Positions 43,916 through 64,000 of a DNA stretch of 64,000 nt are shown here, piece after piece. Within the stretch, counting starts at the first letter, position 1. Each line of letters starts with the position of its first letter. The notes beneath the pieces are model-generated. The model searched no databases. It worked only from the letters and a program-made list of their open reading frames with translations, and was not told the origin of the DNA. The DNA comes from a virus. The DNA lies in the IMG/VR virus record IMGVR_UViG_3300042894_002899, positions 1-64,000 of that record; one strand, given 5' to 3'. The translations under genes were made by a program, and so were the position numbers.

Positions 43916-44509
43916 ATGGAGATTATTGATAATGTTGTTGAGACCAAATTTGAAAATGGGATCAAAAAAATACAAATTGTATTAACACACACCTCAAGAA
44001 CTTTATTTGATTATATGGTTTCGATCAAATATAGATTTGGTGGTAAACCGGTAAGATTACCTCATTATGTTATTGGTAGGGATGGTAAGGTGATTAACTT
44101 ATTGAACGACGATACTAACTGTAGATTTACCAATAACGATAGGATTAATGAAAAGGCAATCATTATTTCTTTGGAAAATTTGGGTTGGTTAGAAAAAGAA
44201 CCGCTAAAACAACATCACATAAACTGGATTGGTAATATTTATAAAGAGAAAGTTGTAGATCGTAAGTGGAGAGACTACTTTTTTTGGCATCCATATACAG
44301 ATATTCAGTTGGAAAAAACTGCAGAACTCTGTAAAGAATTGTCAGAAAAACATGGTATTAAACTTAAATGTGTGGGACACAATACCAAGGTAAAAGGTGT
44401 TGAATCTTTTTTGGGTATATTAACAAGATCAAACTTTGATGAATTTGCCACAGACTTAAGTCCGGCATTTGATTTTGAGAAATTTAATAAGTTATTAGAA
44501 GATGAATAA
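43916..44509 (+). CDS. N-acetylmuramoyl-L-alanine amidase (endolysin)
   Basis: This 197-residue protein fits the amidase_2 / T7 lysozyme family, which cuts the amide bond between MurNAc and the peptide. H25 in IVLTHTS is the first zinc ligand. LPHYVIGRDGKVINLL is the conserved core strand. AIIISLENLGWL is the next. VGHNTKVKGVE supplies the second His, and DLSPAFDFEKF matches the DPGxxF end that gives the third ligand region. No signal peptide is present, so a holin or other route is needed to reach the wall. It overlaps the next gene by 8 nt in a lysis-like operon. Confidence 0.88.
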   Translation: MEIIDNVVETKFENGIKKIQIVLTHTSRTLFDYMVSIKYRFGGKPVRLPHYVIGRDGKVINLLNDDTNCRFTNNDRINEKAIIISLENLGWLEKEPLKQHHINWIGNIYKEKVVDRKWRDYFFWHPYTDIQLEKTAELCKELSEKHGIKLKCVGHNTKVKGVESFLGILTRSNFDEFATDLSPAFDFEKFNKLLEDE

Positions 44510-45095
44510 TTACGATGAAATAAAAATGTTGGTTGAAGCGTCAAGAAGAGCTTTAAAGGGTAAAGTGAATGAAAGTAATAGTACCGACATTCGCAAACAA
44601 TATGGTTTAATCATAGAACAAATATCTGATGAAACTGATAATGTTGAAATTGATGACATCAATATTGAAGAAAAACCAAAAAAAGACTCTGATGAAGTTG
44701 GAGTTAAAAAAGAAAAACAAAAAGCTTATAGGGTATTGAATAATATCATTATCCTCCATGGTAAAACTAAGGCCGATTTACAATTAACCACAGACGAGAA
44801 AAACGCTCTAACATCAAGTGTTGATGAATTTAGAAATGATGTTGCAGAACTTGTTGATTTTGGTGATTTGAATGTTTACCACGATAACGTTGAGTGGAAA
44901 GGTAAAATTTTAGAAAATGATTTAGAATTTTTCTTTTCAATAAACGAACCAAATGGTTTATATATTAAGGGAGACATGATCAAAATTGATCAAGACTATA
45001 TGGAAACTATTACAAAATTGCAAGGGTACTATGAGAAATTTAAAACTAAATGGAGTAAGATAGTTGCTTCAAGACAAGAAGACGTAGAAAAATGA
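44502..45095 (+). CDS. Hypothetical protein with (L/V)-V-E leader
   Basis: This 197-residue protein starts MNNYDEIKMLVEASRRALKG, with an L-V-E site at residues 10-12, like the leader-bearing proteins elsewhere in the window. An acidic linker (DNVEIDDINIEEKPKKDSDE) follows. A folded domain of ~115 residues ends the protein (NNIIILHGKTKADLQLTTDE and a later EWKGKILENDLEFFFSINEP). No family is recognised. It overlaps the amidase by 8 nt and the first spanin-like gene by 4 nt, yet the leader hints at a head-packaged protein. Confidence 0.62.
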   Translation: MNNYDEIKMLVEASRRALKGKVNESNSTDIRKQYGLIIEQISDETDNVEIDDINIEEKPKKDSDEVGVKKEKQKAYRVLNNIIILHGKTKADLQLTTDEKNALTSSVDEFRNDVAELVDFGDLNVYHDNVEWKGKILENDLEFFFSINEPNGLYIKGDMIKIDQDYMETITKLQGYYEKFKTKWSKIVASRQEDVEK

Positions 45096-45445
45096 GAGAA
45101 TTTTTAATAAAAAATTGGAAGAACATCACTCTTGGTATACTAGGGGTGATTTTCGTTTATTTATTGGTTAGGGTTTTTACACCAGCTCCTGATATGTCAG
45201 AACTTAATAAGTATAAGTTGGAACAAATAGATAAGCACATTGAGGAAATGAAAAACATGCAGAAAAGTTTGAGTGACTCCATACAATCTTACCAAAGTAA
45301 AATAACTGAGATTGATGAAAAGATCTCAAAAATCAAAGTGGAGAAGAAAGAGGTGAACAATTATTACACTCAGAAAAAAGAAGAAATAAAAAATGCGGAC
45401 AAAAAACAAATAGATAGTCTGTTGAGAAGTAGATACAATTTTTAA
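45092..45445 (+). CDS. Inner-membrane coiled-coil protein, spanin-like
   Basis: This 117-residue protein has one N-terminal membrane segment (ITLGILGVIFVYLLVRVF, about 12-29) and then a long coiled coil (about 40-100). That is the plan of an i-spanin (Rz-type), which spans the periplasm and fuses membranes after the wall is cut. It begins in an ATGA overlap with the gene upstream and lies just after the amidase. The next gene may be its partner. The family assignment is by architecture only. Confidence 0.6.
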   Translation: MREFLIKNWKNITLGILGVIFVYLLVRVFTPAPDMSELNKYKLEQIDKHIEEMKNMQKSLSDSIQSYQSKITEIDEKISKIKVEKKEVNNYYTQKKEEIKNADKKQIDSLLRSRYNF

Positions 45446-45446
45446 T

Positions 45447-45860
45447 ATGAAAAAAATATTTTTAATTTTTGTTTTTGGTCTTTTTTCACTAACGGTTAGT
45501 GGTCAAAAAGGTATTAAGGATACATCAGAAATGTCCATCCCTTATAGTGTTGCTCAGAAAATGTTATTAGATCTTAATGATTATGATAGACTTAAGGAGT
45601 TATCTAAACTTGATAAAAAAGAAATTGTTGAATTAAATAACAAAGTTGAATTGTTAAATAAAGTAAACCAAACTTGGGTTGAAAAAGATTCTTTGAGTAG
45701 AGAAATAATTTCTGAAACGGAAGAAAAGGTTAAAATTTACAAAGAAGAAAATGAACAACTTAGAGATGATAATAAGAGATTAAAAACTAAGAACACGATA
45801 TTCAATATAATATCAGGAGCAATTGTTGCACCATTAACATACATGATATTATTTAAATAA
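45447..45860 (+). CDS. Secreted coiled-coil protein with C-terminal membrane segment, spanin-like
   Basis: This 137-residue protein starts with a signal peptide (MKKIFLIFVFGLFSLTVSGQ), followed by a long coiled coil (about 45-115) and a C-terminal hydrophobic segment (NIISGAIVAPLTYMILF). There is no lipobox cysteine, so it is not a classical o-spanin. Export followed by a membrane anchor gives a periplasm-spanning rod, as in unimolecular spanins. It lies 1 nt after the previous spanin-like gene and overlaps the next by 1 nt. Confidence 0.58.
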   Translation: MKKIFLIFVFGLFSLTVSGQKGIKDTSEMSIPYSVAQKMLLDLNDYDRLKELSKLDKKEIVELNNKVELLNKVNQTWVEKDSLSREIISETEEKVKIYKEENEQLRDDNKRLKTKNTIFNIISGAIVAPLTYMILFK

Positions 45861-46105
45861 TGGCACTTACGACATCAGATAAAAAAGAGATCGAAACTTT
45901 AATAAAAAAAGAAATTAAAGACTTTTTAGGGTCAAATACCGCAAAACAATTTGAAACTAAATTACTTGACAACATCTCAAAAGAGATGCAACGAGGAGGT
46001 CTTAAAAAAGATGTTAAAGAGATAGTCATAAAATCATTCCAAGAGTACTTTACAGTGATGTATCAACAAAGAGGGTTCTGGGAACAAAAATTCAGAAATG
46101 TATAA
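45860..46105 (+). CDS. Small helical hypothetical protein
   Basis: This 81-residue protein is basic and helical throughout (DKKEIETLIKKEIKDFLGSN, then LKKDVKEIVIKSFQEYFTVM). It ends with aromatic residues (YQQRGFWEQKF). It has 1-nt overlaps with the genes on both sides. Similar short helical proteins appear in the virion regions of related phages, but no function is known. Confidence 0.6.
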   Translation: MALTTSDKKEIETLIKKEIKDFLGSNTAKQFETKLLDNISKEMQRGGLKKDVKEIVIKSFQEYFTVMYQQRGFWEQKFRNV

Positions 46106-46896
46106 TGGGAGATGTAATTACAAAACTTAAAGACTCTATCGCGAGTGGTTTAGCCTCAGATCCAGACGCAAGAAGAGATGTTCTTAAAGCGATTGATAAG
46201 GCTAATGTTAATGAAGAATCAAGACATTATTTAGAGTTTTTAAATGATAAAAACGACATGTCTGAGATTTATAAATTAATTAAAAATAAAAAACTTTCTA
46301 ACAATCAAATTAGAAAAAAAATAAAAGAATTTCTCAAAGAACCTAACGATTTGAGGGATTTCCTAAATGCTATTTTGGATACAAAATCGAGTATTGAAAA
46401 GTTAATACCTAAGTCGGGTAAAAAAGAAGAAAATACTGAAGCAACAGGTGCTGGAGGTGCGGGAGCATACTCAATGCCGTTATTCTCAACCACAAAGGGA
46501 GATGTTGTTAAAGGTGTGAAAACCGTTAGAGAACAAATAGAGAGTGATGGTGAGGTTGGGTTAACGGATGGCGAATCAGTTAAAGCAGAAACAAAAGAAG
46601 CGACTAGTTCTTCATCATCAGGTCAATATAGTCAACCGGCTATATGGGCAAAATCTATGAAAAAGAAAGATTGGAAAGGAGCGTCAACAAAATGGATGCC
46701 AGGCTCCAAAAGAGTTCAAGTTAAGAAAAAATGTACAAGATTCCCATACTGTAATCAAGGCGATATAAATGCTCTCAAGATCTTTGAAAATGAGACAGTC
46801 CAAAGTGCGATTGACAGTGTCTCGAGTAGGTATGGCGTTAATAAAGAGTATATTTCAGAGATTGTCTTTCAAGAAATTAGAAAAAGACAAAAATAA
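46105..46896 (+). CDS. Hypothetical protein with Gly/Ala-rich linker
   Basis: This 263-residue protein has a helical N-terminal domain (about 1-105) with many Lys and Asp. A flexible stretch follows with ATGAGGAGAYSMPLFST (about 113-129), a phrase I associate with virion or head-associated proteins of large phages. A Ser-rich linker and a basic C-terminal domain end the protein (VQVKKKCTRFPYCNQGDINA, then VNKEYISEIVFQEIRKRQK). It is the last gene before the acidic protein at 46921. A head-related role is a guess from composition. Confidence 0.6.
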   Translation: MGDVITKLKDSIASGLASDPDARRDVLKAIDKANVNEESRHYLEFLNDKNDMSEIYKLIKNKKLSNNQIRKKIKEFLKEPNDLRDFLNAILDTKSSIEKLIPKSGKKEENTEATGAGGAGAYSMPLFSTTKGDVVKGVKTVREQIESDGEVGLTDGESVKAETKEATSSSSSGQYSQPAIWAKSMKKKDWKGASTKWMPGSKRVQVKKKCTRFPYCNQGDINALKIFENETVQSAIDSVSSRYGVNKEYISEIVFQEIRKRQK

Positions 46897-46899
46897 AGA

Positions 46900-46906
46900 T
46901 ATTTAT
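46900..46906 (+). promoter_or_regulatory. TATTTAT motif
   Basis: GATATTTATAA lies 14 nt before the ATG at 46921 in a 24-nt gap. Confidence 0.45.
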
Positions 46907-46920
46907 AAGAAAAATTAAAA

Positions 46921-48519
46921 ATGAATAGAACAGAATATATCCGCTCAAGATTTGAAAAAATCTTATCAGAAAATATTAACGAGAAAGCTAACGAAATTCT
47001 TACCAAACTTAATTTGGATAAAGAAGTCCCATTTGATGCTCCTGGAGGACCTTCTGACTATGTACAAGAAGGTGAAACTTGTGAACAGTGTGGTGGTGAA
47101 ATGAAGGAAGGTGAAACTTGCGAACAGTGTGGTGGAAAAGGTGAAGTTATGGAGTTAGGTGGTATGGATACAGATCACCCAAAATTCGGTAAGTTAAACC
47201 TTAAACAGTTGTCTAGAAAAGAATTGGAAAAACTACTTAGTAGTGATGATGAAGAAGAAGATGACGATGAGTGGGAAGAGGTTGATTTAGATGCGGAGAC
47301 TGACTGGTCTAAATTAGAGGAAGAGATTGAGGAAGAACTTCACGGAAAACAACGCAAGTTAGATAAAAATAAAAATGGTAGACTCGATAAAGAAGATTTC
47401 AAGATGTTAAGAAAAAAACACATGGAAGAAAATGACGAAGATACTGAACCTTTATATGAAGTAGAATTTGAATTAGATTTGAATGAATACTCAATGGGTG
47501 ACGACGATCTTGAGGTAGTGAAACCATACGGTGATTTCTCAACAGATAGTCCTAATATTAAACCAGGTAGAAACCAAGTTAAAAATGTTGGAGATAAATA
47601 TCAAAGAAAGATCTCTAAAAAATTTGACGATTATGAGTTAGAAGAGGGTGAGACTGAAGAAGGAAATGCGTTTACAGGAGCTTTAGCTCAAGCTAAAAAA
47701 GAAGGTAAAAATTCTTTTGAAGTTGATGGTAAAAAATATGGTGTTAAAGAGTCATATCGCAATAACAAATCTAAAGTGACCAAAAATATTATTTTTACAG
47801 AGAACGAACTTATCTCCCTTATCGAAAAAATGATTAACGAAGAGAAAAACTCTTTCAATATGAAAGAACCTAAAGGGTATGTTGAATATGAGAAAGCACA
47901 CAAAAAAGATAAGAAAGAAAACGAAGATTATTTAAAGAGTGTTGCTAAAAAAATGACTGACTACCTTAAAGGTGCATCTGATGGAGGGTCTAAATATGAA
48001 ATGAAAGAAACTCAAAAATTCCCAACTGAAAATGGTGGAATGAAAAAAGGTAACAGAAAGAAATATACACCATCTGATGCTGTTGATGAATATATCGATG
48101 CATTCTCATATCCTGGTCAAACTAATTTAGTGTATGATGAGATTAAACCTAATGATGAGTGGATTGAAGCTAATTTAGTTGGTTCTTCTAAAACAGGTAA
48201 TGCTCAAGTTGATAAAGACGGAAATGCGTTAGGTAATGTTGTACCAAGTGAGGTAGGTGAAAAATTCCTTAAAAACTTCAGAGACAACCTTTACGGTCAA
48301 GAACAAATGGATGCGTCATATCAAAGACAACCACAACCTGTTGATCAAGCTGGTGAGACTACTGAAAGAGGTACTCTTAAATCTAAAAGAGGTAAAAAAA
48401 CGGCTCAAAGTGTACTTAACAAGTTAGACGAATCTGTTAATGAAAAAGAAACTCTAAAGTTAAATGAGGAATTTAACAGAATACAACAGTTAATGGGGTA
48501 CCAACAAAAAACACAATAA
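46921..48519 (+). CDS. Acidic multidomain protein with CxxC pairs and EF-hand-like loop
   Basis: This 532-residue protein starts MNRTEYIRSRFEKILSEN, with an L-S-E site at residues 15-17. It then has two copies of GETCEQCGG (about 50-75). A strongly acidic stretch follows (DDEEEDDDEWEEVDLDAETD). Next is an EF-hand-like calcium loop, LDKNKNGRLDKEDF (about 147-160). At about 284-304 a second leader-like segment occurs (NIIFTENELISLIEKMINEE). The C-terminus ends LNEEFNRIQQLMGYQ. The acidic, low-complexity nature fits a scaffold-like or core protein of the prohead, possibly processed at several (L/I)xE sites. The evidence is compositional. Confidence 0.68.
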   Translation: MNRTEYIRSRFEKILSENINEKANEILTKLNLDKEVPFDAPGGPSDYVQEGETCEQCGGEMKEGETCEQCGGKGEVMELGGMDTDHPKFGKLNLKQLSRKELEKLLSSDDEEEDDDEWEEVDLDAETDWSKLEEEIEEELHGKQRKLDKNKNGRLDKEDFKMLRKKHMEENDEDTEPLYEVEFELDLNEYSMGDDDLEVVKPYGDFSTDSPNIKPGRNQVKNVGDKYQRKISKKFDDYELEEGETEEGNAFTGALAQAKKEGKNSFEVDGKKYGVKESYRNNKSKVTKNIIFTENELISLIEKMINEEKNSFNMKEPKGYVEYEKAHKKDKKENEDYLKSVAKKMTDYLKGASDGGSKYEMKETQKFPTENGGMKKGNRKKYTPSDAVDEYIDAFSYPGQTNLVYDEIKPNDEWIEANLVGSSKTGNAQVDKDGNALGNVVPSEVGEKFLKNFRDNLYGQEQMDASYQRQPQPVDQAGETTERGTLKSKRGKKTAQSVLNKLDESVNEKETLKLNEEFNRIQQLMGYQQKTQ

Positions 48520-48566
48520 TTTACATTATTGAGTAATCCCTTATAATTTTTTCATAGTTGATAACT

Positions 48567-49034
48567 ATGGATAATTTTCTTAACTACATAACTAAAAATC
48601 TTGACCCTGAACAAGTTGATATCTGGTTCAGGGTCAATAATATTATACCGGAGAAGATGGAATTGTATTACGATCTCTCCTATAGTCTGTACCTACTAAT
48701 TAGAACAACTTATTTAGGTTATGACGATGACTTTAGTGAAACTAAAGTTAAAATGACACCTGAGGATAATCAAAACCACTTTGATTGGTGTTGGAATAAG
48801 ACAATCGAAAACTTCAAGAAAGAGAACATTAATTTTGAATTAAAGGGGGAACATTATGATTACTTCCTTAATTTATTTGTTGAGATTTATTACACACAAG
48901 GTAAAGATGTTGTCAGAAACTCAATAGATCTATTCTTTAACGATTTGTTTAATCGAGACAAACCATTTACTCAAGTGGATTTAGATTTAGTATTCAATAT
49001 ATATAAAAGTTTGGATAAAAATCTAATTATATAA
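48567..49034 (+). CDS. Hypothetical protein
   Basis: This 155-residue protein is read from the ATG at 48567; a TTG nine nt upstream is the alternative. It is mostly helical with many aromatic residues (MELYYDLSYSLYLLIRTTYL, then YDYFLNLFVEIYYTQGKDVV). It has no membrane segment and no recognised family. It stands alone between the acidic protein and the Hc1-like gene, without a clear promoter motif directly before it. Confidence 0.65.
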   Translation: MDNFLNYITKNLDPEQVDIWFRVNNIIPEKMELYYDLSYSLYLLIRTTYLGYDDDFSETKVKMTPEDNQNHFDWCWNKTIENFKKENINFELKGEHYDYFLNLFVEIYYTQGKDVVRNSIDLFFNDLFNRDKPFTQVDLDLVFNIYKSLDKNLII

Positions 49035-49097
49035 CCTTTACAAAGTCAATAGGGGTTATTACTATAGACTTAATAAACATTAATTTTTTACGTTAAA

Positions 49098-49268
49098 ATG
49101 GAAACTTTAGAAAAAATTAAAGACCTTACCGAACAATTGAGTATCGACGTTACTAAGTTTTATGATGGTAATAAAAGTGCCGGAACTAGAGCAAGAAAAA
49201 CATCACAAGATTTAAAAAATCTTATTCAACAATTGAGAGGAGAGATTCTTGAGGAAAGAAAAAAATAA
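49098..49268 (+). CDS. Histone H1 / Hc1-like small DNA-binding protein
   Basis: This 56-residue protein starts METLEKIKDLTEQLSIDVTK and contains GNKSAGTRARKTSQDLKNLI (about 25-44), followed by a short RGEILEERKK end. The GNKxAGTRARKxSxxLxxLxxxxR pattern is that of the Hc1/histone H1-like family, small basic proteins that bind DNA in Bacteroidota and Chlamydiae. The length matches short Bacteroidota members. It overlaps no other reading frame, lies 6 nt before a small membrane protein, and follows an AT-rich 63-nt gap. Possible roles are compaction of the phage genome or interference with the host nucleoid. Confidence 0.8.
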   Translation: METLEKIKDLTEQLSIDVTKFYDGNKSAGTRARKTSQDLKNLIQQLRGEILEERKK

Positions 49269-49273
49269 TTAAA

Positions 49274-49468
49274 ATGAAGGAATTGGATATTTTACTATTA
49301 TTTGTGTTCGTATTATCATGTGTATTTACTGCTAATACGATAATCAAAATAATTGGACTTATTTTAAGTGACGAACCAAAACAAATAACCTACAACCGAA
49401 TTGAAAAAATATCCAATTACTTCTTCTTTTCCTATTTAATAACTTATTTTATAACCAACATAATATAA
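49274..49468 (+). CDS. Small two-segment membrane protein
   Basis: This 64-residue protein has two hydrophobic helices (ELDILLLFVFVLSCVFTANT and YFFFSYLITYFITNII) joined by a polar loop with a basic segment (DEPKQITYNRIEKI). The size and layout could fit a holin or a small host-membrane effector. It lies 6 nt after the Hc1-like gene and 2 nt before the next gene. It is not next to the amidase, so holin identity is uncertain. Confidence 0.6.
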   Translation: MKELDILLLFVFVLSCVFTANTIIKIIGLILSDEPKQITYNRIEKISNYFFFSYLITYFITNII

Positions 49469-49469
49469 T

Positions 49470-50939: not shown

Positions 50940-50968
50940 AAAACAATTATAATAGTTTGTCTCGATAA

Positions 50969-52995: not shown

Positions 52996-54372
52996 ATGTC
53001 ATTACTTTTTAAAAACCTACTGAAAGATCTTATTGTGGAAAATTCTCGTTTCCAAGTTCTTTATAACAAATTCGTGAAACCAAAAGATAAGGGTCAAAAA
53101 GGTATATTACCTTTTGAAACACTATTCGCATTAATTGCTGCTGACCCTACGTCTAGTTTCCCTGATGGTATGGATATAGACAACGTAACACCAAAAGATA
53201 TGGATCGAGTTAAGATCGGTAAATACACTCAGTGGTTATTGAAAAACTTTATCACCCCAAAATTGGAATCAAATCACCCATTAAATATTTTGGACCCTCA
53301 ATCTGGCCAATATAAATCTGCTTTAAAAGAGTTCCAACACTTATTTATGGAAGACTTATATAAGGTGACTGGTGACCTTAAAAAATTTGAAAGATTCAAA
53401 AATCGTTTACCGCAAGAACTTCGTGACATTAATAAGTTGACAGTAGATACGTTGTATGATCAAGTTAAAGACTTCAGTTTAGAAAAAACTAAGGCAACTA
53501 AAGATGAGAAAAAAGCGGCTTCTAAAACTTATGAACACCCAGGTGCTGATGTTGTTTATCGTGGTCAAGATTGGACGGTTGCTAAAATTTCTGATACAGG
53601 TCAAATCGGTAAAGACGCGGCTTGTTTCTATGGTGGTTCATACCAAGAGCCAGGTAAAGGTGAAACAAGATGGTGTACGTCATCACCAGGATTAACTTGG
53701 TTTGATAGGTACATTAAAGATGGACCATTATATGTGGTAATTCCAAATAAAGGAACCACATTCCAAGGACAAAAAGAATTAGGTGATGTATCTGGTCTTC
53801 CAGCACTTCGTTATCAATTCCACTTCCCATCTAATCAGTTTATGGATCCTGCCGACAGACAGATCAATTTGATTGATTTCTTGAATACAAATGAGGAAGG
53901 TTTGAAACAATTCTTTAAGCCTGAGTTTATGAAATCATTATCAGGTGATAAAGGAAGTAAAGTACAAGTGGAATATCCTAATGACTCGGCATCGAAGTTC
54001 ATAGCCCTTTATGGATTTGATGAGTTCTTTGAATCATTACCTGATAACCTTGAAAGATTCACATTCAAGAATTCAAGTAGAGATAGTAAGTTTGCACTTA
54101 ACATTCCTGAGGACATCGGTAGATTTAAAAATCTTACAGCACTTAATTTAGTAGGGTGTGTTGCTTCGATTCCTGAATCTATCTGTAACTTACCTAACCT
54201 ACAATATTTGTCTTTACCTGACAACCCACAACTTCAAAAATTACCGGAATGTATTGGTAACATGGAAAACTTGATGGTATTGAATATACCTGGAGGCGGA
54301 GGTAAAGGAGTAATTCCAAAATCTGTTTATGACAGAGCAGAAAGAGATGAAGACTTCCACATCTTTGAATAA
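52996..54372 (+). CDS. Leucine-rich repeat protein with WCT-type domain and leader
   Basis: This 458-residue protein begins MSLLFKNLLKDLIVENS, an I-V-E site at 13-15, similar to the start of the gene at 63019. The middle (about 185-300) has the phrase GETRWCTSSPG followed by GPLYVVIPNKG and QFHFPSNQFMDPADRQINLI. This conserved domain of unknown role recurs in large phages. The C-terminal ~100 residues are leucine-rich repeats (NIPEDIGRFKNLTALNLVGC, then SIPESICNLPNLQYLSL). LRRs bind proteins, so a host target is plausible for a packaged protein. It ends at a terminator. Confidence 0.78.
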   Translation: MSLLFKNLLKDLIVENSRFQVLYNKFVKPKDKGQKGILPFETLFALIAADPTSSFPDGMDIDNVTPKDMDRVKIGKYTQWLLKNFITPKLESNHPLNILDPQSGQYKSALKEFQHLFMEDLYKVTGDLKKFERFKNRLPQELRDINKLTVDTLYDQVKDFSLEKTKATKDEKKAASKTYEHPGADVVYRGQDWTVAKISDTGQIGKDAACFYGGSYQEPGKGETRWCTSSPGLTWFDRYIKDGPLYVVIPNKGTTFQGQKELGDVSGLPALRYQFHFPSNQFMDPADRQINLIDFLNTNEEGLKQFFKPEFMKSLSGDKGSKVQVEYPNDSASKFIALYGFDEFFESLPDNLERFTFKNSSRDSKFALNIPEDIGRFKNLTALNLVGCVASIPESICNLPNLQYLSLPDNPQLQKLPECIGNMENLMVLNIPGGGGKGVIPKSVYDRAERDEDFHIFE

Positions 54373-54438: not shown

Positions 54439-54840
54439 ATGAAAATAATCATTACAGAATCACAACTTAGTCTCCTTAAAGAAAGTTCAATTGTTGATAT
54501 GGATCTTCAGGAACTATATGATAGGGCTTTGAAATTAAAGAAGGTGGTTACCAGAATGATTAAAAAAGAATTGGAGGATTATTATTGGTTTGATGATTTA
54601 CAGGTTGATATTGATAGAGATTGGGGAGGTCTTCCTGTTTACAATTTTATACTCAAAATAAATTTATCAATACCTAACGATGAATTTTATAGTAAAAAAT
54701 TAGGTAAAGAACTCCATGATAAAATAGGTGATGTCTTTAGTGAATATTTCCCACATGTCAATAAACATACTCAATATAATTTGACAGGTACTTGGGCGGG
54801 GTTTATCCAAGACAATGAACTCTTTACAATTATTATTTAA
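54439..54840 (+). CDS. Leader-bearing small protein 1
   Basis: This 133-residue protein starts MKIIITESQLSLLKESS, with an L-K-E site at 13-15. The body (about 22-133) is an alpha/beta domain (LYDRALKLKKVVTRMIKKEL, then VYNFILKINLSIPNDEF) of no known family. It is the first of four adjacent genes that share the leader but differ in their bodies. The pattern of one fixed N-terminus on different bodies suggests a sorting signal. Confidence 0.75.
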   Translation: MKIIITESQLSLLKESSIVDMDLQELYDRALKLKKVVTRMIKKELEDYYWFDDLQVDIDRDWGGLPVYNFILKINLSIPNDEFYSKKLGKELHDKIGDVFSEYFPHVNKHTQYNLTGTWAGFIQDNELFTIII

Positions 54841-55230: not shown

Positions 55231-55232
55231 TT

Positions 55233-56644: not shown

Positions 56645-56648
56645 CAAT

Positions 56649-56933: not shown

Positions 56934-56943
56934 TAAAACAGGA

Positions 56944-56950
56944 TATTTAT
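56944..56950 (+). promoter_or_regulatory. TATTTAT motif
   Basis: GGATATTTATT lies 15 nt before the ATG at 56966 in a 32-nt gap. Confidence 0.48.
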
Positions 56951-56965
56951 TAAATAAAAAAAACT

Positions 56966-57268
56966 ATGAAGAAAACTATTAATGAGGAACTTCAGGAAAT
57001 CAAGTTTATGTTTAAATACAAACCTGGTATTGTATTATCTGAACAAGTTGAAGATGAAGATGTTGATTTTGATATGATGGACGTTGAAATGGACGAACAA
57101 AGGGAGGTTCAAATACCTGTTAGACCGGATGTTGATACGCCAACGAAACCAAAGAAACCAGGAACACCATACCGTCCTAAACCAGGACCTAAGAAAGCAC
57201 CTAAAGCTGAGAAGGGAGAAATGCCGTCTTGGTTAACGTTTGATGAACTTGGAATTGAATTTGAATAA
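56966..57268 (+). CDS. Acidic and Pro/Lys-rich protein with leader
   Basis: This 100-residue protein begins MKKTINEELQEIKFMFKYKP and reaches an L-S-E site at 24-26 (VLSEQ). An acidic segment follows (EDEDVDFDMMDVEMDEQ), then a Pro/Lys-rich, probably unfolded segment (KPKKPGTPYRPKPGPKKAPK). The end is a short folded piece (MPSWLTFDELGIEFE). It lies 1 nt before the next gene, so both probably belong to the same head-related unit. Confidence 0.65.
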   Translation: MKKTINEELQEIKFMFKYKPGIVLSEQVEDEDVDFDMMDVEMDEQREVQIPVRPDVDTPTKPKKPGTPYRPKPGPKKAPKAEKGEMPSWLTFDELGIEFE

Positions 57269-57269
57269 T

Positions 57270-58505
57270 ATGAAAAATATGCACAAGAAACTCTATACTG
57301 AAGGAATTTCAAAAAAAGACTTTTTGAAGTTAACCGAAGCACCTATTGATTACGAAGGACCTGAAAGAATGGAACCGGGTATTGAAAGAAAAATCACAGG
57401 TAAAGAAACACCTTATCATAATTTCCCCGCAATCCCTGAAATGGACCGAGATTTTATTGAGTTGATCTCTTCAAAAAGATTTAAAGACTCGGTTGATAAA
57501 GTTAGAATGGCTATGGGTAACACAAGAGCAATTCAAGGAGATAACCCACTTATGAGTTTGATGATGACCGTAATGGGATCCATGAGAGAACTTATTATGA
57601 TCCAAATGCAAAATAAGAAAGCTCTTGAAGATTTAGCGGTTGAATTAGTTAGAAATGAAATGGGTATTCCTGAAGACGCAATGCAATTCAAGGCAGAACT
57701 TGTAATGCAACCTATGGGTCCTGCACCAGGAATGCAAGAAGAGCCTGAAATGCCGAGTGAAGAAGAAATCGAAGAATTCATGGGAGATGTGGAACAGTTC
57801 AATCTTGAAAGAGCGAAAAGACGTTTCATTAATTCATTAATACAAGGTGCGGCATTTAAAGGTGGTCACATGTTTAATTTGGTTAGAAACGAAATTAACA
57901 ACATTAATCCACGTTTAATGGATCTCTATACGACTTCACAAGCTCTTATGGAACACGCTTATTGGTTATATCCTGATATGGAACAAATGGCTGGTGGTGG
58001 CGGTGGTCAAATGGGACAATCTGAAGTTGATGAAGAAACAGATCCACCAACAGTAAAAGGTAAAGCTGTGACGTTCCCATTACTTGTTCATGAGTTAGTT
58101 AAAGGTGTTTACGAGGTGTTTGGAACACACGGACTACCTGACGACCCAAGACAACAGGAAATGATCTTAAAAGCTGAAGATACATTACCCTCTGAGGTTT
58201 GGGATTCTCGTTTAGGACCAATTTTTTGGGAAAAATTTGTTGCAACTTATCCTATGGAATTATTCGATGAGGATATGAAGCAAATCCAACACTACCTGTT
58301 TATGAGATTTTCATCACTAAGTGCTGAAGAGTTCATGAGAGTGGCAAAAATGATATTGAGTGGTGATCCAAAAGGTAATAAGTTTATTCAAGATATGGTA
58401 AACGACATAGTTCGTGAATTAAAAGATCAAGAATATAAAGATGCGATGGGTTACGAAGACGATGATGATTTAGGTGGAGTAGATTTTAGTGATTTAGGAC
58501 TTTAA
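57270..58505 (+). CDS. Putative head-associated protein with (L)TE leader
   Basis: This 411-residue protein is read from the ATG at 57270, 1 nt after the preceding stop; an in-frame ATG 30 nt upstream would overlap that gene. It starts MKNMHKKLYTEGISKKDFLK with LTE at 21-23. The body is helical and Met-rich (about 95-130: LMSLMMTVMGSMRELIMIQM), then acidic and Pro-rich. It continues with a long helical domain (about 170-240), a Gly run, and a C-terminal domain (WDSRLGPIFWEKFVATYPME). It ends with an acidic tail. No family is recognised. It could be a structural protein matured by the prohead protease. Confidence 0.65.
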   Translation: MKNMHKKLYTEGISKKDFLKLTEAPIDYEGPERMEPGIERKITGKETPYHNFPAIPEMDRDFIELISSKRFKDSVDKVRMAMGNTRAIQGDNPLMSLMMTVMGSMRELIMIQMQNKKALEDLAVELVRNEMGIPEDAMQFKAELVMQPMGPAPGMQEEPEMPSEEEIEEFMGDVEQFNLERAKRRFINSLIQGAAFKGGHMFNLVRNEINNINPRLMDLYTTSQALMEHAYWLYPDMEQMAGGGGGQMGQSEVDEETDPPTVKGKAVTFPLLVHELVKGVYEVFGTHGLPDDPRQQEMILKAEDTLPSEVWDSRLGPIFWEKFVATYPMELFDEDMKQIQHYLFMRFSSLSAEEFMRVAKMILSGDPKGNKFIQDMVNDIVRELKDQEYKDAMGYEDDDDLGGVDFSDLGL

Positions 58506-58507
58506 TT

Positions 58508-58538
58508 TTGACACAGAATCATAAAACCATTATACTTG
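58508..58538 (+). promoter_or_regulatory. Promoter for the 58543 gene
   Basis: TTG (58508-58510), 20 nt, then TATACTTG (58531-58538), with the ATG 4 nt further on. The geometry equals the Dam and SAP promoters. The same bases also read TTGACA-17-TATACT, the E. coli sigma-70 consensus; the Bacteroidota reading is preferred for consistency. Confidence 0.65.
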
Positions 58539-58542
58539 TTTT

Positions 58543-58839
58543 ATGAAGAATATTGATTGTGAAATATACATTAGTCAGGTAATATCTTTTTTTGAGAACA
58601 ACCCAAATGACCTAATGGACTTGATAGGAGAAGTACAAAGAAATGACTTCTATCAAAAGTTGAGAGAGAGATGTGAAAAGAATGTTGATGATGGTGAGGA
58701 CTATGTTCTTACAAGAACGCAAATGATAAACATAGTTCTTGAACTCAAAGCACCGGAACTAATTAAACCACAAAATATAGAATCCGTAGTTGAAGGATTT
58801 GTTATGAAAACAAAATGGGGTGAAATAATTTTAAATTGA
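58543..58839 (+). CDS. Conserved hypothetical phage protein
   Basis: This 98-residue protein (NIDCEIYISQVISFFENNPN, then LTRTQMINIVLELKAPELIK) is helical and resembles short proteins common in large phages, without a known role. The last residues (FVMKTKWGEIILN) form a beta hairpin. It is a single-gene unit, with a strong promoter upstream and a terminator downstream. It is therefore expected to be expressed early and on its own. Confidence 0.68.
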   Translation: MKNIDCEIYISQVISFFENNPNDLMDLIGEVQRNDFYQKLRERCEKNVDDGEDYVLTRTQMINIVLELKAPELIKPQNIESVVEGFVMKTKWGEIILN

Positions 58840-58860
58840 TCGTCAGAATACGATAAATTA

Positions 58861-58892
58861 AACCACAGTCAGAAAACTGTGGTTTTTTTTTC
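58861..58892 (+). terminator. Rho-independent terminator
   Basis: AACCACAGT (58861-58869) pairs with ACTGTGGTT (58876-58884), 6-nt loop, then a T run. Confidence 0.93.
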
Positions 58893-58901
58893 TTAGATCT
58901 T

Positions 58902-58931
58902 TTGGTATTTATGAAATATTATATATCTTTG
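58902..58931 (+). promoter_or_regulatory. Host-type promoter for the small basic protein gene
   Basis: TTTG (58901-58904), 19 nt, then TATCTTTG (58924-58931); the ATG follows after 2 nt. A TATTTAT (58906-58912) lies within the spacer, so the region may be read both early and late. Confidence 0.72.
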
Positions 58932-58933
58932 TA

Positions 58934-59071
58934 ATGTCTAAAACGGGAAACGAAATGAAAACTATTGAAATCACAATCCAAGAAATCTGGCAAGCAACTA
59001 GACCTATTGTGCAGAAAAGTAAGAAATCTTATACTCGTAAACAAAAACACAAAAACAAACAAAACCAATAA
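58934..59071 (+). CDS. Small basic protein (45 residues)
   Basis: This short frame encodes a 45-residue protein starting MSKTGNEMKTIEITIQEIWQ and ending in a strongly basic tail (KSKKSYTRKQKHKNKQNQ). A host-type promoter stands directly before it and the next gene starts 3 nt later. The basic tail suggests nucleic-acid or ribosome binding. Such very short, early, basic proteins are often host-takeover factors. An internal ATG at residue 8 could also be used. Confidence 0.65.
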   Translation: MSKTGNEMKTIEITIQEIWQATRPIVQKSKKSYTRKQKHKNKQNQ

Positions 59072-59074
59072 TAT

Positions 59075-59833
59075 ATGATCTACACACCAGAACTTATTAA
59101 ATCAATTGCACCAGCAGTATTCGCAACAGCACCATCTCCAAAGATGACAAACAAGTATGAGTTTGTCCCTACTCACGAGATAATGGATATGTTTGACCGT
59201 CAGGGTTGGCAACTATCATCAGTAAAACAAACAGGTAAAGGTGTTCACAATGTCCACGAGTTGAAATACAGAAACGGACAATTACCTAAAGTTGGTGACT
59301 CTGTTGTTGAAGCGGTGATCCGCAACTCTCACGATGGAACCGCAACATTCTCAATGGGAGCCGGTTTGTTCCGATTGGTATGTTCTAACGGACTCACAGT
59401 TCCTACGTCAGTTGCTGAGAAATTCTCAATCCGTCACAACCACTTCTCATACGACGACGTAAAAGAATTGGCCGACTCATTCTCACAGAAACTTCCAAAG
59501 ATTGAGGCATCTGTAAACCGAATGATGGAGCGTCAGTTGACTGAGAAAGAAAAACTACGTTTGGTTAGCGAAGCGGTTAAGATCCGATGGGCAGTTGGGA
59601 ACCAACCACAATCTTTGGATGTGAGTGATATCCTTACACCATTCCGACCTGAAGACGAAGGTGACGATCTATGGACAACCTTCAACGTGATCCAAGAGAA
59701 GATGGTAAAGGGTGGGTTTTCATACCAAACACCACGAGGACGAACAACCAAACTACGTGGGATTAACAGCATCCAAGCTTCAAACCGATTAAACACTAAA
59801 CTTTGGGAAGCCGCTGAACTATTATTGGTGTAA
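59075..59833 (+). CDS. DUF932-like protein
   Basis: This 252-residue protein resembles the DUF932 family of phage and plasmid proteins. The core phrases are GLFRLVCSNGLTVPTSVAEK (about 107-126), then SIRHNHFSYDDV, and a later KIRWAVGNQPQSLDVSDIL. The function of the family is not known; some members are tied to plasmid or phage replication or anti-restriction. It is 3 nt after the small basic gene. The codon choice (more CCG, CGT, CAC) seems richer in G and C than its neighbours, which may indicate transfer or stronger expression. Confidence 0.75.
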   Translation: MIYTPELIKSIAPAVFATAPSPKMTNKYEFVPTHEIMDMFDRQGWQLSSVKQTGKGVHNVHELKYRNGQLPKVGDSVVEAVIRNSHDGTATFSMGAGLFRLVCSNGLTVPTSVAEKFSIRHNHFSYDDVKELADSFSQKLPKIEASVNRMMERQLTEKEKLRLVSEAVKIRWAVGNQPQSLDVSDILTPFRPEDEGDDLWTTFNVIQEKMVKGGFSYQTPRGRTTKLRGINSIQASNRLNTKLWEAAELLLV

Positions 59834-59841
59834 ATTAACAC

Positions 59842-59865
59842 GGGGGTCACTGACCCCCATTTTTA
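59842..59865 (+). terminator. Hairpin terminator
   Basis: GGGGGT (59842-59847) pairs with ACCCCC (59853-59858), followed by ATTTTTA. The T run is short, so it may be a weak terminator or pause site. Confidence 0.65.
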
Positions 59866-59869
59866 AATT

Positions 59870-60217
59870 ATGGGAAATTTCATACACGAAGAGAAGTTTT
59901 TAAAACTTCATCAAGACACAAAATCTGAGTTATTATCGGTTAATAAACTCGAAGATAATCACGAACTAACACCTGACTTTCTTTTTACCAAACCTAAATT
60001 CACTCCATATTTATTGGACGGTAAAGAGGTTTCAGGACAAATGTCATATCTCGAATCAATTTTTGTTTATGATGATGACATTTACCTATATTTATCTAGA
60101 AGTGAGTCAATGTTCTCTTCTTTTTCTTGTAAGATTTATTATCCTATAAAAAAGAGAAAAGACGTAGAATTCTTTATATTAAACTTAAAAAAATTGAAAA
60201 AAAATGGAAATCAGTAG
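59870..60217 (+). CDS. Hypothetical protein
   Basis: This 115-residue protein is read from ATGGGAAATTTC. It is alpha/beta with alternating aromatic strands (SQ and YLESIFVYDDDIYLYLSRSE) and a basic end (KIYYPIKKRKDVEFFILNLK). No family is recognised. It overlaps the thioredoxin gene by 14 nt and is thus likely co-translated with the redox pair. Confidence 0.62.
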   Translation: MGNFIHEEKFLKLHQDTKSELLSVNKLEDNHELTPDFLFTKPKFTPYLLDGKEVSGQMSYLESIFVYDDDIYLYLSRSESMFSSFSCKIYYPIKKRKDVEFFILNLKKLKKNGNQ

Positions 60218-60518
60218 TGTAGAATTACAAGAAAAAATTAAAAATGGTGAAAAAATTGTTGTTGAGTTTTGGGCTGAATGGTGTGGACCATGTAAGATGA
60301 TGAAACCAATATTCGAAAGAGTTGCTAAGGCTAACACAACGGAAGTTCAAATGTATACCATGAATGTTGATACGAATAAAGCCGCTGCTGCAGGACTTGG
60401 TATTAGAAGCATCCCTACTATTAAAGTGTTTAACTCTGGTGAAGTTGTAGATACTAAAGTTGGCGCCCTTAACGAGAATCAAATAAACGAGATGATCGGA
60501 GAGTTAATTCATGGATAA
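60204..60518 (+). CDS. Thioredoxin
   Basis: This 104-residue protein has the thioredoxin active site WCGPC at 26-30 and the cis-Pro loop (IRSIPTIKVF, about 68-77), with typical length and strand order. It should reduce the C-terminal cysteines of NrdA or other disulfides. It overlaps the glutaredoxin-like gene by 8 nt and the gene before by 14 nt. The presence of both proteins near each other, with class I NrdAB at the other end of the window, points to a phage-supplied electron source for dNTP synthesis. Confidence 0.95.
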   Translation: MEISSVELQEKIKNGEKIVVEFWAEWCGPCKMMKPIFERVAKANTTEVQMYTMNVDTNKAAAAGLGIRSIPTIKVFNSGEVVDTKVGALNENQINEMIGELIHG

Positions 60519-60798
60519 GATTGCAGTTGTCTTCACCATGAAGAGTTGTCCCCACTGTCACGACTTCAAAAATATGTTAACTGAAGCGGGGATTGATTTT
60601 ATCGATAGAGATATTGATGAACACGAAGAAGAGTACGACATGTTTGTGGAAGCAACTGGTAATGATTTTGTACCAGCATTCATGTTAGTAGAAAATCCTG
60701 AAAGTGAAAAACCGACCACAGGTCTTTACGCACCTGATCGAGACTTTGAGGATGTTGAACAAGGATTAAATATAATCAGAGAATTTTTCGAAAGATAA
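60511..60798 (+). CDS. Glutaredoxin-like protein
   Basis: This 95-residue protein has the glutaredoxin active site CPHC at 13-16 and the family layout: FTMKSCPHCHDF, then a helix, FIDRDIDE, and FVPAFMLVE with the cis-Pro. The C-terminal GLYAPDRDF and a final helix follow. It is coupled to thioredoxin by an 8-nt overlap and ends at a terminator. The likely role is to deliver electrons to NrdA. Confidence 0.88.
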   Translation: MDKIAVVFTMKSCPHCHDFKNMLTEAGIDFIDRDIDEHEEEYDMFVEATGNDFVPAFMLVENPESEKPTTGLYAPDRDFEDVEQGLNIIREFFER

Positions 60799-60805
60799 AA
60801 AACAA

Positions 60806-60832
60806 AACCCCTCGATATCGAGGGGTTTTTTT
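60806..60832. terminator. Bidirectional terminator between convergent genes
   Basis: AACCCCTCG (60806-60814) pairs with CGAGGGGTT (60819-60827), 4-nt loop, then T run. A-rich sequence on the other side would allow termination from the minus-strand gene as well. Confidence 0.92.
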
Positions 60833-61526
60833 ATATTAAAATGATGTCTTTTAGTCTATCCTGAGCCAAGTATGGTTTTGGATCATCAGGTTTGGTAATA
60901 TCCTCAATTAAGTTGTAGTTTGTCAGACACTCACTAAATTCCTTTACATTCATATCAAACACATCCAAAACGAGATCTTTGATTGTTTTATTAGGTATTC
61001 TTGAATCTGAAACAATTTTTATTTTGTGATCTTCCTCCTCATCAATCTCACTATTATAATAGAACATTAAATTATCTACACCAAGTAAACTATACATTTG
61101 GTTGAAGATATAATGTCCGTAGTAGTAAATTCCTCTACCACATCCTAAACTATATCCATAGGGGAATTCAGATGAGATACTGATCTCAGTAAATGGTTCT
61201 TCTTCCTCGATTTGAAATGATTTATTAACTCTAACCCAAGCTTTAGATAAATCATCAATACTTTGTTCGTACTTGATTATATCGATAACGTTGATGTCCT
61301 TTATACCTAATGATGTGAAAAGGTCCTCAAACTCTTTAATAAAGTCGTATTTAAGATCACTAAGATCTAACTCTTTATCACTTGTTGTTTGACCATTAAC
61401 AACCACAAAGGTTTCACAATCTGTAATTTGGATTATTGTATTTTCTTTCTTGTCGAATTTAGATAGAATGTAGTCGGCAAATAGATTTACAAAATACCGT
61501 CTTGTGTTTTTTTCTAATTTTCTCAT
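60831..61526 (-). CDS. Hypothetical protein on the minus strand
   Basis: This 231-residue protein is read from the ATG at 61524-61526 (MRKLEKNTRRYFVNLFADYI). A frame open further upstream would overlap the neighbouring gene by 101 nt, so the internal start is chosen. It is acidic (IEEEEPFTEISISSEFPYGY, then EIDEEEDHKIKIVSDS) and ends in KPYLAQDRLKDIILI. No motif is recognised. It shares with the next minus-strand gene an acidic character and possible head-associated status. Confidence 0.62.
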   Translation of the reverse strand: MRKLEKNTRRYFVNLFADYILSKFDKKENTIIQITDCETFVVVNGQTTSDKELDLSDLKYDFIKEFEDLFTSLGIKDINVIDIIKYEQSIDDLSKAWVRVNKSFQIEEEEPFTEISISSEFPYGYSLGCGRGIYYYGHYIFNQMYSLLGVDNLMFYYNSEIDEEEDHKIKIVSDSRIPNKTIKDLVLDVFDMNVKEFSECLTNYNLIEDITKPDDPKPYLAQDRLKDIILI

Positions 61527-61567
61527 ACTTTGATTTTTTATAATGTGTATGAGAAATAACTTAAAGT

Positions 61568-61574
61568 ATAAATA
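61568..61574 (-). promoter_or_regulatory. TATTTAT motif on the minus strand
   Basis: ACTATTTATACTTT lies 41 nt before the ATG at 61526, further than in most cases, and overlaps the gap after the next minus-strand gene. The evidence is therefore weak. Confidence 0.3.
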
Positions 61575-61575
61575 G

Positions 61576-62700
61576 TTAGATGTAATCGGTAAAGTTTTCG
61601 TTAATATTCTTTCTTGTTCTATACCAGTCAGGATAGTCAGGTACTCTAAAATCAATACACTCAACCTCACTTTCATTAATCATAGCAACAAGTAAGTTGA
61701 TAAAATCACCAAAATATTCTAAATGAGAGTCAGTGTATTGATCCATTTTTCTTCCATTTAAAAATTCTTTAATAATATTTGGAAAATTCCTGATTTTCAA
61801 ATACTCATGATATACCGTTTTTTTGTTTCCGTCTCTTAAAGTGACTTCCCTTGACACATTATCAAATCCACCCTCAAAAAAATCGTCTAAACCATCATAA
61901 ACAAGGTCATAAACTTCACCTTCATACGCTTGATTTTCAGAGTTCCAATATAAACTTCTTAACTCTTGACCTATTTCTTCTAAGTCATTATTGAATAGTT
62001 CATTTATTGCATTTCCATCTTTCACTAAATCGTTTAAGTCCTGAGGTTTTACTCTAAAATAACCATCAGTTCCTTGTTCTTCAGAAAGACTCTCAAAAAA
62101 ATCAGAGTTATAATCCTCCAAAGACAATTCCTTATCCCCAACTTCTTTATATATAATATCTTTTAGTCTTGTTATGTTTGATTCGTCTAACTCCTCAACA
62201 ACTTCATATGGTTTTACGTTATTATCGTAATACCAGTCGTGACCCATACCATCCTCACTTAAAATCTTTTTCGCCACATATCTGGCTCCACCATCACGAT
62301 TTGACCCACAAAAAAGAAAAGATAAATCCTCTCTATCTTTTACATAAAAATAAAAACCATCAGGTCTAACATCAACATCAGTAATTAGATTGTTGGTTAT
62401 AAAAATCATAGTATCTTCATAGTTATGTGTTAAACCATGAAGAAGGTATAGATTTTTAAATTCTTCTGGCATTGTGTCATAATCTAAATTAGTTACAATA
62501 CCATTATCAACTAAAAATTGAAAAAGTTCCTCATCAAATTCCCTAGACGGTAATTCTCCCAAACTAAGATCATCTAATAAACCATATTTTTTGATAAAGT
62601 TTAAAAAATTGATCACAGTATTAAAGAACGGTTCAATATCCTCCTCGTAATCACCACTATTAAAAGACTTAAGTAAATTTTTTGCTCTTTCTAAACTCAT
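61576..62700 (-). CDS. Acidic hypothetical protein on the minus strand
   Basis: This 374-residue protein starts MSLERAKNLLKSFNSGDYEE. It is strongly acidic, with an alpha-helical first third and phrases such as FYFYVKDREDLSFLFCGSNR and DRR-free loops. The C-terminal part ends RTRKNINENFTDYI, where IN-E-N recalls the (L/I)xE sites. No family is recognised. A TATTTAT motif lies 5 nt before its start, so it is transcribed from its own late-type signal. Confidence 0.62.
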   Translation of the reverse strand: MSLERAKNLLKSFNSGDYEEDIEPFFNTVINFLNFIKKYGLLDDLSLGELPSREFDEELFQFLVDNGIVTNLDYDTMPEEFKNLYLLHGLTHNYEDTMIFITNNLITDVDVRPDGFYFYVKDREDLSFLFCGSNRDGGARYVAKKILSEDGMGHDWYYDNNVKPYEVVEELDESNITRLKDIIYKEVGDKELSLEDYNSDFFESLSEEQGTDGYFRVKPQDLNDLVKDGNAINELFNNDLEEIGQELRSLYWNSENQAYEGEVYDLVYDGLDDFFEGGFDNVSREVTLRDGNKKTVYHEYLKIRNFPNIIKEFLNGRKMDQYTDSHLEYFGDFINLLVAMINESEVECIDFRVPDYPDWYRTRKNINENFTDYI

Positions 62701-62705
62701 ATTGA

Positions 62706-62712
62706 ATAAATA
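62706..62712 (-). promoter_or_regulatory. TATTTAT motif on the minus strand
   Basis: Read on the minus strand, GATATTTATTCAAT lies 5 nt before the ATG at 62700. The spacing equals that at 54427, 54844 and 63007. Confidence 0.55.
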
Positions 62713-62724
62713 TCATAAATAAAA

Positions 62725-62750
62725 AAAGGTGTCCCAAAAGAAACACCTTT
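62725..62750 (-). terminator. Terminator for the MGCGC gene
   Basis: On the minus strand, AAAGGTGT and ACACCTTT form a stem with a 10-nt loop and a T run follows. It separates the small 62772 gene from the next minus-strand gene. Confidence 0.8.
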
Positions 62751-62771
62751 ATCCGATGATACACGGAAATA

Positions 62772-62915
62772 TTACCTTCTGTAATATTTGTTCACAATTT
62801 TTTTAACTGACTCTTGTACGTTGGTTTGTGCAGTATTAGTACCTTGTTGAGTCTGTGTTTGTGTTTGTGTTTGAGGTTGTTGTGCTTGTTGTTTGTTTTT
62901 ACATCCGCAGCCCAT
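62772..62915 (-). CDS. Small Cys/Gln-rich protein (MGCGCK type)
   Basis: This 47-residue protein is read from the ATG at 62913-62915. It begins MGCGCKNKQQAQQPQTQTQT, with a Gln/Thr repeat, and ends VQESVKKIVNKYYRR. Short MGCGC-type proteins are common in Bacteroidota and their phages; the function is unknown. The GCGC start could bind metal. An upstream extension in frame exists but would cross the divergent TATTTAT motifs, so it is not used. A TATTTAT motif lies 30 nt upstream. Confidence 0.68.
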   Translation of the reverse strand: MGCGCKNKQQAQQPQTQTQTQTQQGTNTAQTNVQESVKKIVNKYYRR

Positions 62916-62945
62916 GACTTTATATTTTAATTGGTTTATTTGTCT

Positions 62946-62952
62946 ATAAATA
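62946..62952 (-). promoter_or_regulatory. TATTTAT motif on the minus strand
   Basis: Read on the minus strand, AGATATTTATAGAC lies 30 nt before the ATG at 62915, back to back with the motif for the plus-strand gene at 63019. Confidence 0.42.
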
Positions 62953-63006
62953 TCTGTTAAAATAAGATTAGTTGGAAAAATCCAATAATCAATTATATTC
63001 TTAGGA

Positions 63007-63013
63007 TATTTAT
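63007..63013 (+). promoter_or_regulatory. TATTTAT motif
   Basis: GGATATTTATAA lies 5 nt before the ATG at 63019 in a divergent intergenic region. Confidence 0.52.
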
Positions 63014-63018
63014 AACAT

Positions 63019-64000
63019 ATGTCAATTAAAAATCTATTAAGTAATTTACTCATAGAACAGGATGATAGTCTTGTAACTATCACACCTGAACAATATCTTG
63101 AACAATTAGAAAATGTCGGCGGAATAGCAGAAAGAATATCTATGCTTAAACCATATAGAGGTAAAGGTATTGTGATTAATGGTGACTTAAACCTCCGAGA
63201 TGATAAAAATGTTGGACCACTTACCGGTGTCGTAAGGATAATGGGTAGATTGAATATCGCCCGCTCAAATGTACCTAACTTGAACGGTATTACGGTCGAT
63301 GGTTATGTTGATGATTACGGATCATCTATGTGGAAAACAAAAAAACAAGTTGAACTTAATAAAAAACTTGCCGAGTTAGATCAGAAAAGGAAAGAAGACG
63401 AGTGGAATAGTAATAATGACGATGATGATGCTAAAAGAACATCTGCATTGTATAGTATTTTAGGTATACAAGGTATGATCGGTATGACCGAAGATGAAGA
63501 AGGTAACGAAGTACGTGAAGATAAGTATTTTTTGTATCCTCAAGGTAGAGGAACCGGTGGTTATGGTAAACAATATGAATGGTTGGGTGGTGATAACAAA
63601 TTTGAAGGTATTCTTTACGATGTATATACGGAAGATGAGGCAGATATGGCATCAAAAATTGCGGTTAGAAATATGATCGACGACATGGGTTACGACGCTT
63701 TCTCAAGTTGGGTTTGGGATAATGCAATCGATAAAGATCATTGGAGAAGATGGTTAGATGAATTCCACACTGATGTGTACTATCAGGACCCAGAAGGACA
63801 TGAAATTCCTTTAACTTTATCTACAACACAGAAAGCACAAGTAGACAAATTTCAAAAATCAATTAACGACCTTAAAACTAAATTAACTACTGAAAACTTA
63901 CCCGAAGACCAAAAAAATATAATCCTCAAAAAAATCGAAGGATTTGAAAATATAATTGAAGATATTGAAGAAGATCCTCAAGGTGAATACGATGAAGATT
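63019..64000 (+). CDS. Leader-bearing hypothetical protein, cut by the window end
   Basis: At least 327 residues are encoded with no stop before the window ends. The start MSIKNLLSNLLIEQDDSL has L-I-E at 11-13 and resembles the start of the LRR protein at 52996 (MSLLFKNLLKDLIVE). A region at about 35-100 looks like repeated short strands (GKGIVINGDLNLRDD, then VVRIMGRLNIARSNVPNLNG), similar to beta-solenoid or LRR-like turns. A charged linker and an alpha/beta domain follow (ILYDVYTEDEADMASKIAVR, then DDMGYDAFSSWVWDNAI). The C-terminus is a coiled coil as far as visible. The role may be like that of the LRR protein. Confidence 0.72.
   Translation, partial: MSIKNLLSNLLIEQDDSLVTITPEQYLEQLENVGGIAERISMLKPYRGKGIVINGDLNLRDDKNVGPLTGVVRIMGRLNIARSNVPNLNGITVDGYVDDYGSSMWKTKKQVELNKKLAELDQKRKEDEWNSNNDDDDAKRTSALYSILGIQGMIGMTEDEEGNEVREDKYFLYPQGRGTGGYGKQYEWLGGDNKFEGILYDVYTEDEADMASKIAVRNMIDDMGYDAFSSWVWDNAIDKDHWRRWLDEFHTDVYYQDPEGHEIPLTLSTTQKAQVDKFQKSINDLKTKLTTENLPEDQKNIILKKIEGFENIIEDIEEDPQGEYDED

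Follow-up and report, generated by a model that had tools for sequence, protein, structure and literature searches.

The window analysed here, bases 1-64,000 of the 77,779-base IMG/VR record IMGVR_UViG_3300042894_002899, probably comes from a large virus of Bacteroidota bacteria. At least eleven of its genes encode otherwise unlike proteins that begin with a short peptide ending in a hydrophobic residue, any residue and glutamate, which raises the question of what these N-terminal leaders are. A sequence-only reading took them for capsid-targeting sequences on a set of effectors packaged in the phage head, and all eleven N-termini that it gave proved exact. We found that a few short, interchangeable start-peptides sit on dozens of unlike, putatively late proteins. 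Judged from sequence, these leaders are probably capsid-targeting propeptides of the T4 kind, multiplied and diversified.

Recurrence of the leaders and their final glutamate

The hydrophobic-x-E rule, which had been offered as evidence, does not serve as such when taken bare. In the window's record, [LIV]xE ending at residues 10-27 was present in 30 of 91 genes and 60 of 195 internal windows, which is chance level; the corresponding values were 140/334 versus 200/744 in relative G001 and 130/377 versus 177/726 in G002. Counting by this rule was dropped because it gave no excess over chance in the window's record. The above-chance signal is instead the common leader sequence. Four leader classes recur, with the consensus MKKVIRLTESDLxRIVRRVIxE (class A), MKIIITESQYxLLxE (class B), about NEELxxIKxLF..xE (class C) and about LTEEExxRILxLH..xE (class D). 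At a cut-off of 14 bits, the class profiles, whose seeds were drawn partly from the scanned genomes, matched 108 of 1180 N-termini from five phage records (G000, 10/94; G001, 44/346; G002, 35/406; G003, 9/137; G006, 10/197). At this cut-off, they matched none of 887 internal segments and no shuffled N-terminus; at 10 bits, one shuffled N-terminus (G003) scored. The profile search that had been proposed for the whole genome yielded four further leader genes in the same record.

The bodies behind the common leaders are indeed unlike: 105 class A proteins fell into 87 body clusters. In IMG/VR, class A was found by pattern in at least 600 stretches; 230 were confirmed, of which 80 were kept. The fixed leader residues are encoded by widely varying synonymous codons. 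These comparisons indicate that the leaders are genuine shared sequence elements. Searched as short queries at E 10, the leader peptides had no match in GenBank phages, a literature search for leader strings gave no papers, and none of the titles listed by further literature searches concerned leaders of this sort in phages of Bacteroidota.

The leader end was evaluated in 20 class A proteins chosen by the LTE..D anchor only, and not by Glu22. Glu22 was present in all 20, P3 was I, V or L in all 20, P2 was free (0.87 bits), and information and similarity fell off after the final Glu. In the kept IMG/VR loci, the Glu was present in 85 of 85 distinct class A proteins, with I, L or V at P3; 56 of these lay at the tblastn match, and neighbours not so selected had the Glu in 29 of 29 cases. 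The frequency of Glu in the bodies was 0.074. In class B, the Glu was in register in 30 of 43 proteins, shifted by one in three and replaced by Asp in two. Class B genes occur in tandem at G002 160894-163628, two of them with Asp in place of the final Glu. According to the available text of PMC9026906, Asp at that position in T4 blocks processing and still allows targeting.

The leader genes also share an upstream motif. As had been claimed, TATTTAT lies within 60 nucleotides (nt) upstream of exactly seven of the eleven genes (4871, 46921, 52996, 54439, 54856, 56966 and 63019). Among genes with at least 25 nt upstream, to which the comparison was limited, it preceded 38 of 39 leader genes versus 189 of 527 others (Fisher 2.8e-15); the 39, among which class D genes were partly labelled B, include G001 116632, a head-tail-adaptor protein matched to the class B pattern by chance, and without it the count is 37 of 38. 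Under the same limit, TATTTAT preceded 46 of 64 structural genes. PHROG hits and inspection by eye defined the structural and replication-type sets. The host-type motif TAnnTTTG preceded none of the nine replication-type genes with a gap, so this comparison does not tell early from late promoters. In G000-G003 and G006, the distance from TATTTAT or TAnnTTTG to the ATG that follows is mostly 4-5 or about 13-21 nt, a spacing that hints at mRNAs that are leaderless or have very short leaders.

Leader genes of the record and their homologues

The leader genes are as follows, with a slash marking the predicted cut.

4871-5359, + strand: class A leader protein of 162 residues; predicted cut after Glu22 (IRE/E); profile 50.6 bits
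44502-45095, + strand: leader-type protein; likelier site IIE/Q at 39, class C-like
46921-48519, + strand: acidic protein of 532 residues; leader MNRTEYIRSRFEKILSE/N
52996-54372, + strand: protein containing leucine-rich repeats (LRR); leader MSLLFKNLLKDLIVE/N
54439-54840, + strand: class B leader protein; MKIIITESQLSLLKE/S; 36.2 bits
54856-55230, + strand: class B leader protein; MKFLITQEQFDLLNE/V; 30.8 bits
55233-55787, + strand: class B leader protein; MKIIISDNQYSLLKE/S; 34.2 bits
55784-56371, + strand: class B leader protein; MKIIITESQYSMLSE/E; 35.3 bits
56966-57268, + strand: class C leader protein; ..KYKPGIVLSE/Q; 62.0 bits
57243-58505, + strand: conserved protein; putative propeptide ending KLTE/APIDYEGPERM
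63019-64000 (gene to 64233), + strand: gene for 404 residues, starting inside the window; leader MSIKNLLSNLLIE/Q
70300, 71269, 72272 and 73634: further leader genes of the same record beyond the window, from the profile search

Alignments of homologues indicate that orthologues exchange leaders while [ILVM]-x-E stays. In the 57243 family, the propeptides span 23-43 residues, the final Glu is present in 13 of 13 diverse homologues, and P3 is L or I in 12 and M in one. The family of 63019 has [LIV]xE/Q in 11 of 11 non-redundant homologues. All seven members of the YMFFSNLEQ (YMFF) family have the site, behind five class A-type and two 14-residue leaders, as do all three members of the EATS family, which carry three different leaders. 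With sites placed by hand, the mean identities before/after the site were 0.34/0.63 (57243), 0.35/0.47 (63019), 0.47/0.59 (YMFF) and 0.31/0.54 (EATS). The 73634 HExxH family does not enter these figures, because one of its rows had been scored at a later ITE; it has an invariant Glu and I or L at P3 in 23 of 23 aligned rows. One further homologue has just MKKEIKE ahead of the body.

The predicted model of 73634 was confident in the body and poor at residues 1-6, 378-387 and 397-409; Foldseek returned no match to the fold of this family at E 0.001 or better, and the best VIA-align Z was 5.0, to helical parts. The 57243 family model was too poor for use (mean pLDDT 56.8). At L004:10635-11864 (record 73634-74863) and at L319-L324, the HExxH protein has a C-terminal tail, ..E-S-I-I-N-W-E-L-H-Q-Q-L-M-E-K-K-Y-G.., in common with a 172-residue HExSH protein that is otherwise unlike it and has no leader. 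The Glu-Ser-Ile ahead of this tail is invariant in the 23 aligned rows.

Two assignments of the sequence-only reading were revised. At 44502, the LVE at residue 12 was not kept in three homologues; a second site, QYGLIIE/Q (residue 39, counted by eye), aligns with QYGLLTE/Q and QYSLLTE/D in two of them, and the third has no such segment. For the gene placed at 57270, the site LTE/APIDYEGPERM held; the start is probably an internal ATG, homologues favouring 57243 or the TTG at 57240. The homologue of 57243 in G002 adjoins the terminase gene. In the 46921 family, [LIV]xE is present in five of five rows with an intact N-terminus; of the remainder of the eight rows, two begin later and G006_74691 bears a class C leader. 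The 52996 family has I[VI]E in five of six rows having the N-terminus, G002_95648 being without the site. Among the seven rows of the 55784 family, an in-register Glu is missing from L008 and L015, and the site itself from G002_166704. The C-terminus of 56966 is common to longer proteins with a different N-terminus. By eye, the protein at 46921-48519 also contains a second leader-like segment, KNIIFTENELISLIEKMINEE, and a class C-like segment, NEEFNRIQQLMGY, close to its end. Beyond the window, a glutamine-synthetase-like gene was seen by eye at L004:2226-3344 (record 65225-66343).

Head machinery, cargo and rival explanations

A gp21-type protease was sought outside the window. Peptidase_S77 was detected in 23 of 45 virus records; neither the 77,779-base record of the window nor G004 (129,811 bases), apparently this phage with some 70 kb of added upstream sequence, showed a T4-type protease. 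S77 and gp23 occurred in exactly the same 23 records (6/10, 13/15 and 4/20 by set), and neither in the other 22, which include many short fragments. In G001, the protease matches T4 gp21 (5jbl) at 2.6e-16 and the capsid protein T4 gp23 at 8.1e-26. All 17 distinct capsid N-termini, from 31 loci, have LINE with A after it (S in one), LINE being matched to the T4 cut position by order only. Contigs with leader genes are up to 304 kb long. In bacterial genomes, 18 pattern matches yielded three loci, and the one metagenome-assembled genome examined encodes S77 on a contig that also bears a class A-like leader. In the isolate Flavobacterium phage immuto (NC_055915), a prohead protease is annotated and the capsid N-terminus contains IVSE/A; the unlike neighbours gp077 and gp076 (117631-118931) carry another common leader, about NFxLKxFLxENKLTxNxxxLKE. 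This phage gave a single weak class B match (E 0.016), and class A was sought there by pattern only, in bases 1-150000 of 160410. A Bacteroidota host is likely because the window encodes an RpoD-like sigma factor at 41871 (by eye) and the G001 head region resembles that of bS21-encoding phages, as described in the available text of PMC9723584.

Two sets were scanned against Pfam. One had 75 rows: 59 leader genes of G001-G003 and G006, joined by genes from the window and its record, with one gene entered twice. The other comprised 79 of the 84 class A proteins. Most bodies had no family match. The putative cargo includes an L,D-transpeptidase body (Tlde1, 4.7e-8), a body with weak similarity to DHH (0.001), one Tae4-type amidase among the 79 (1.1e-14; its carrier, L194, named by pattern), peptidoglycan-binding domains on some bodies, HExxH proteins and an endolysin-like protein with LysM (G001 257849). 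The proposal of an effector set is partly supported, by the unlike bodies, the [ILV]-x-E ends, the late-type motif in front of the genes and the T4-gp21-type protease gene of relatives. It is qualified by carriers that look head-like (57243 and YMFF families) or endolysin-like; some of these proteins probably belong to the head or core and do not act as effectors.

We infer docking, cutting, head location and ejection of the leader proteins as follows. In the late phase, the leader would dock its protein on the prohead core, a T4-type prohead protease would cut after [I/L/V]-x-E, the cut would free the mature protein within the head, and that protein could then exit along with the DNA. Several observations weigh against this scheme. 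The endolysin-like carrier is odd for a head: it may be a wall enzyme that is packaged, or else the leader may serve as more than a head tag. One of the 75 rows matches the ParB C-terminal family (3.1e-39), its carrier not being found among 10 rescanned. The window's record and, among near relatives, G003 and G009 have no head genes. All S77 records were fetched as relatives, so the co-occurrence of S77 and gp23 is not independent evidence, and LINE is no test of cutting in a capsid N-terminus that is conserved over its whole length. The propeptide of the 46921 family is more conserved than the body (mean identity 0.41 before versus 0.36 after the hand-set site), 13 of 43 class B proteins have no in-register Glu (three of them shifted by one), and TATTTAT also precedes three of the nine replication-type genes.

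The leaders could alternatively be uncut docking tags for a target other than the prohead, such as a host protein, a membrane or a phage compartment, with the Glu merely ending a short helix. The endolysin-like carrier would be less surprising under this explanation, as would the 10 of 43 class B leaders that have no Glu even when a shift of one is allowed; but the class A Glu is invariant though P2 is free, otherwise different leaders end in the same [ILVM]-x-E, and this end matches the gp21 rule L/I-X-E given in the available text of PMC9026906, which together make uncut tags unlikely. A further alternative, that the leaders reflect nothing more than recent duplication or an RNA signal where the gene begins, would account for the identity of 54439 and 55784 at 91% of 33 bases and for the tandem class B array in G002, but is highly improbable given the synonymous codon variation at fixed residues and the occurrence of class A in IMG/VR (at least 600 stretches by pattern, 230 confirmed).

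A closer contender accepts capsid targeting and holds that the majority of carriers serve the core, the scaffold or assembly and are removed or retained in the head rather than injected. The 57243, YMFF and EATS families adjoin terminase, capsid and protease genes in relatives, and several bodies are acidic and scaffold-like; against this, the 87 class A body clusters and scattered enzyme-like bodies exceed the needs of a core, and T4 internal proteins provide a precedent for ejection (PMC9026906, available text). We consider this possible but doubtful. As for the favoured capsid-targeting propeptides, a tentative extension is a multi-address packaging code, in which the classes would dock at different places on the core, some proteins would combine an N-terminal leader with a C-terminal cassette, and a single head might deliver some forty different proteins, cell-wall enzymes and metalloprotease-like ones among them, into the Bacteroidota host.

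If the leaders are head tags, as is most likely, the injected toolkit would be far larger than that of T4. A computable N-terminal tag would then list candidate head cargo for an uncultured jumbo-phage group, mostly proteins without a recognisable family that become testable as injected proteins. The leaders would also be of use as new packaging tags in protein delivery, and they would illustrate the extent to which the small internal-protein set of T4 can grow.

Comparison with known systems

The phages resemble the bS21-encoding Bacteroidetes phages (Chen et al. 2022, PMC9723584) in genome size, low GC content and the terminase-portal-protease-capsid region; the available text of that paper does not mention leaders. 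By eye, G001 also has a small bS21-like open reading frame of 64 residues on the opposite strand (156088-156282), in a region that the window's record does not have. In SPN3US and other phiKZ-type phages, many head proteins, ejection proteins among them, carry propeptides that a prohead protease cuts, much as is predicted here, and in SPN3US gp53 and gp54 share identical leaders; those propeptides are long, often >100 residues, with A/S-x-E-type motifs, whereas the present ones are short and end in [ILV]-x-E (PMC5694885, available text).

In T4, IPI, IPII, IPIII and Alt have capsid targeting sequences cleaved by gp21 at L/I-X-E, and Alt is cut at its C-terminus as well (PMC9026906, available text). 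The present system is like that of T4 in its putative N-terminal propeptide on unlike proteins, its L/I-x-E end and the T4-type protease and gp23 of the lineage. The ten-residue T4 leader is not known to resemble classes A-D. We regard the leaders as a probable, much enlarged and diversified variant of T4 capsid targeting and not as a proven member, since head location and cutting are predictions and the record of the window showed no protease. T4 has leaders of ~10 residues on a handful of internal proteins, whereas here they run from about 15 to 34 residues and fall into several unlike families. Carriers number in the dozens per genome in this lineage; one 292-kb record gave 44 profile matches among its 346 N-termini.

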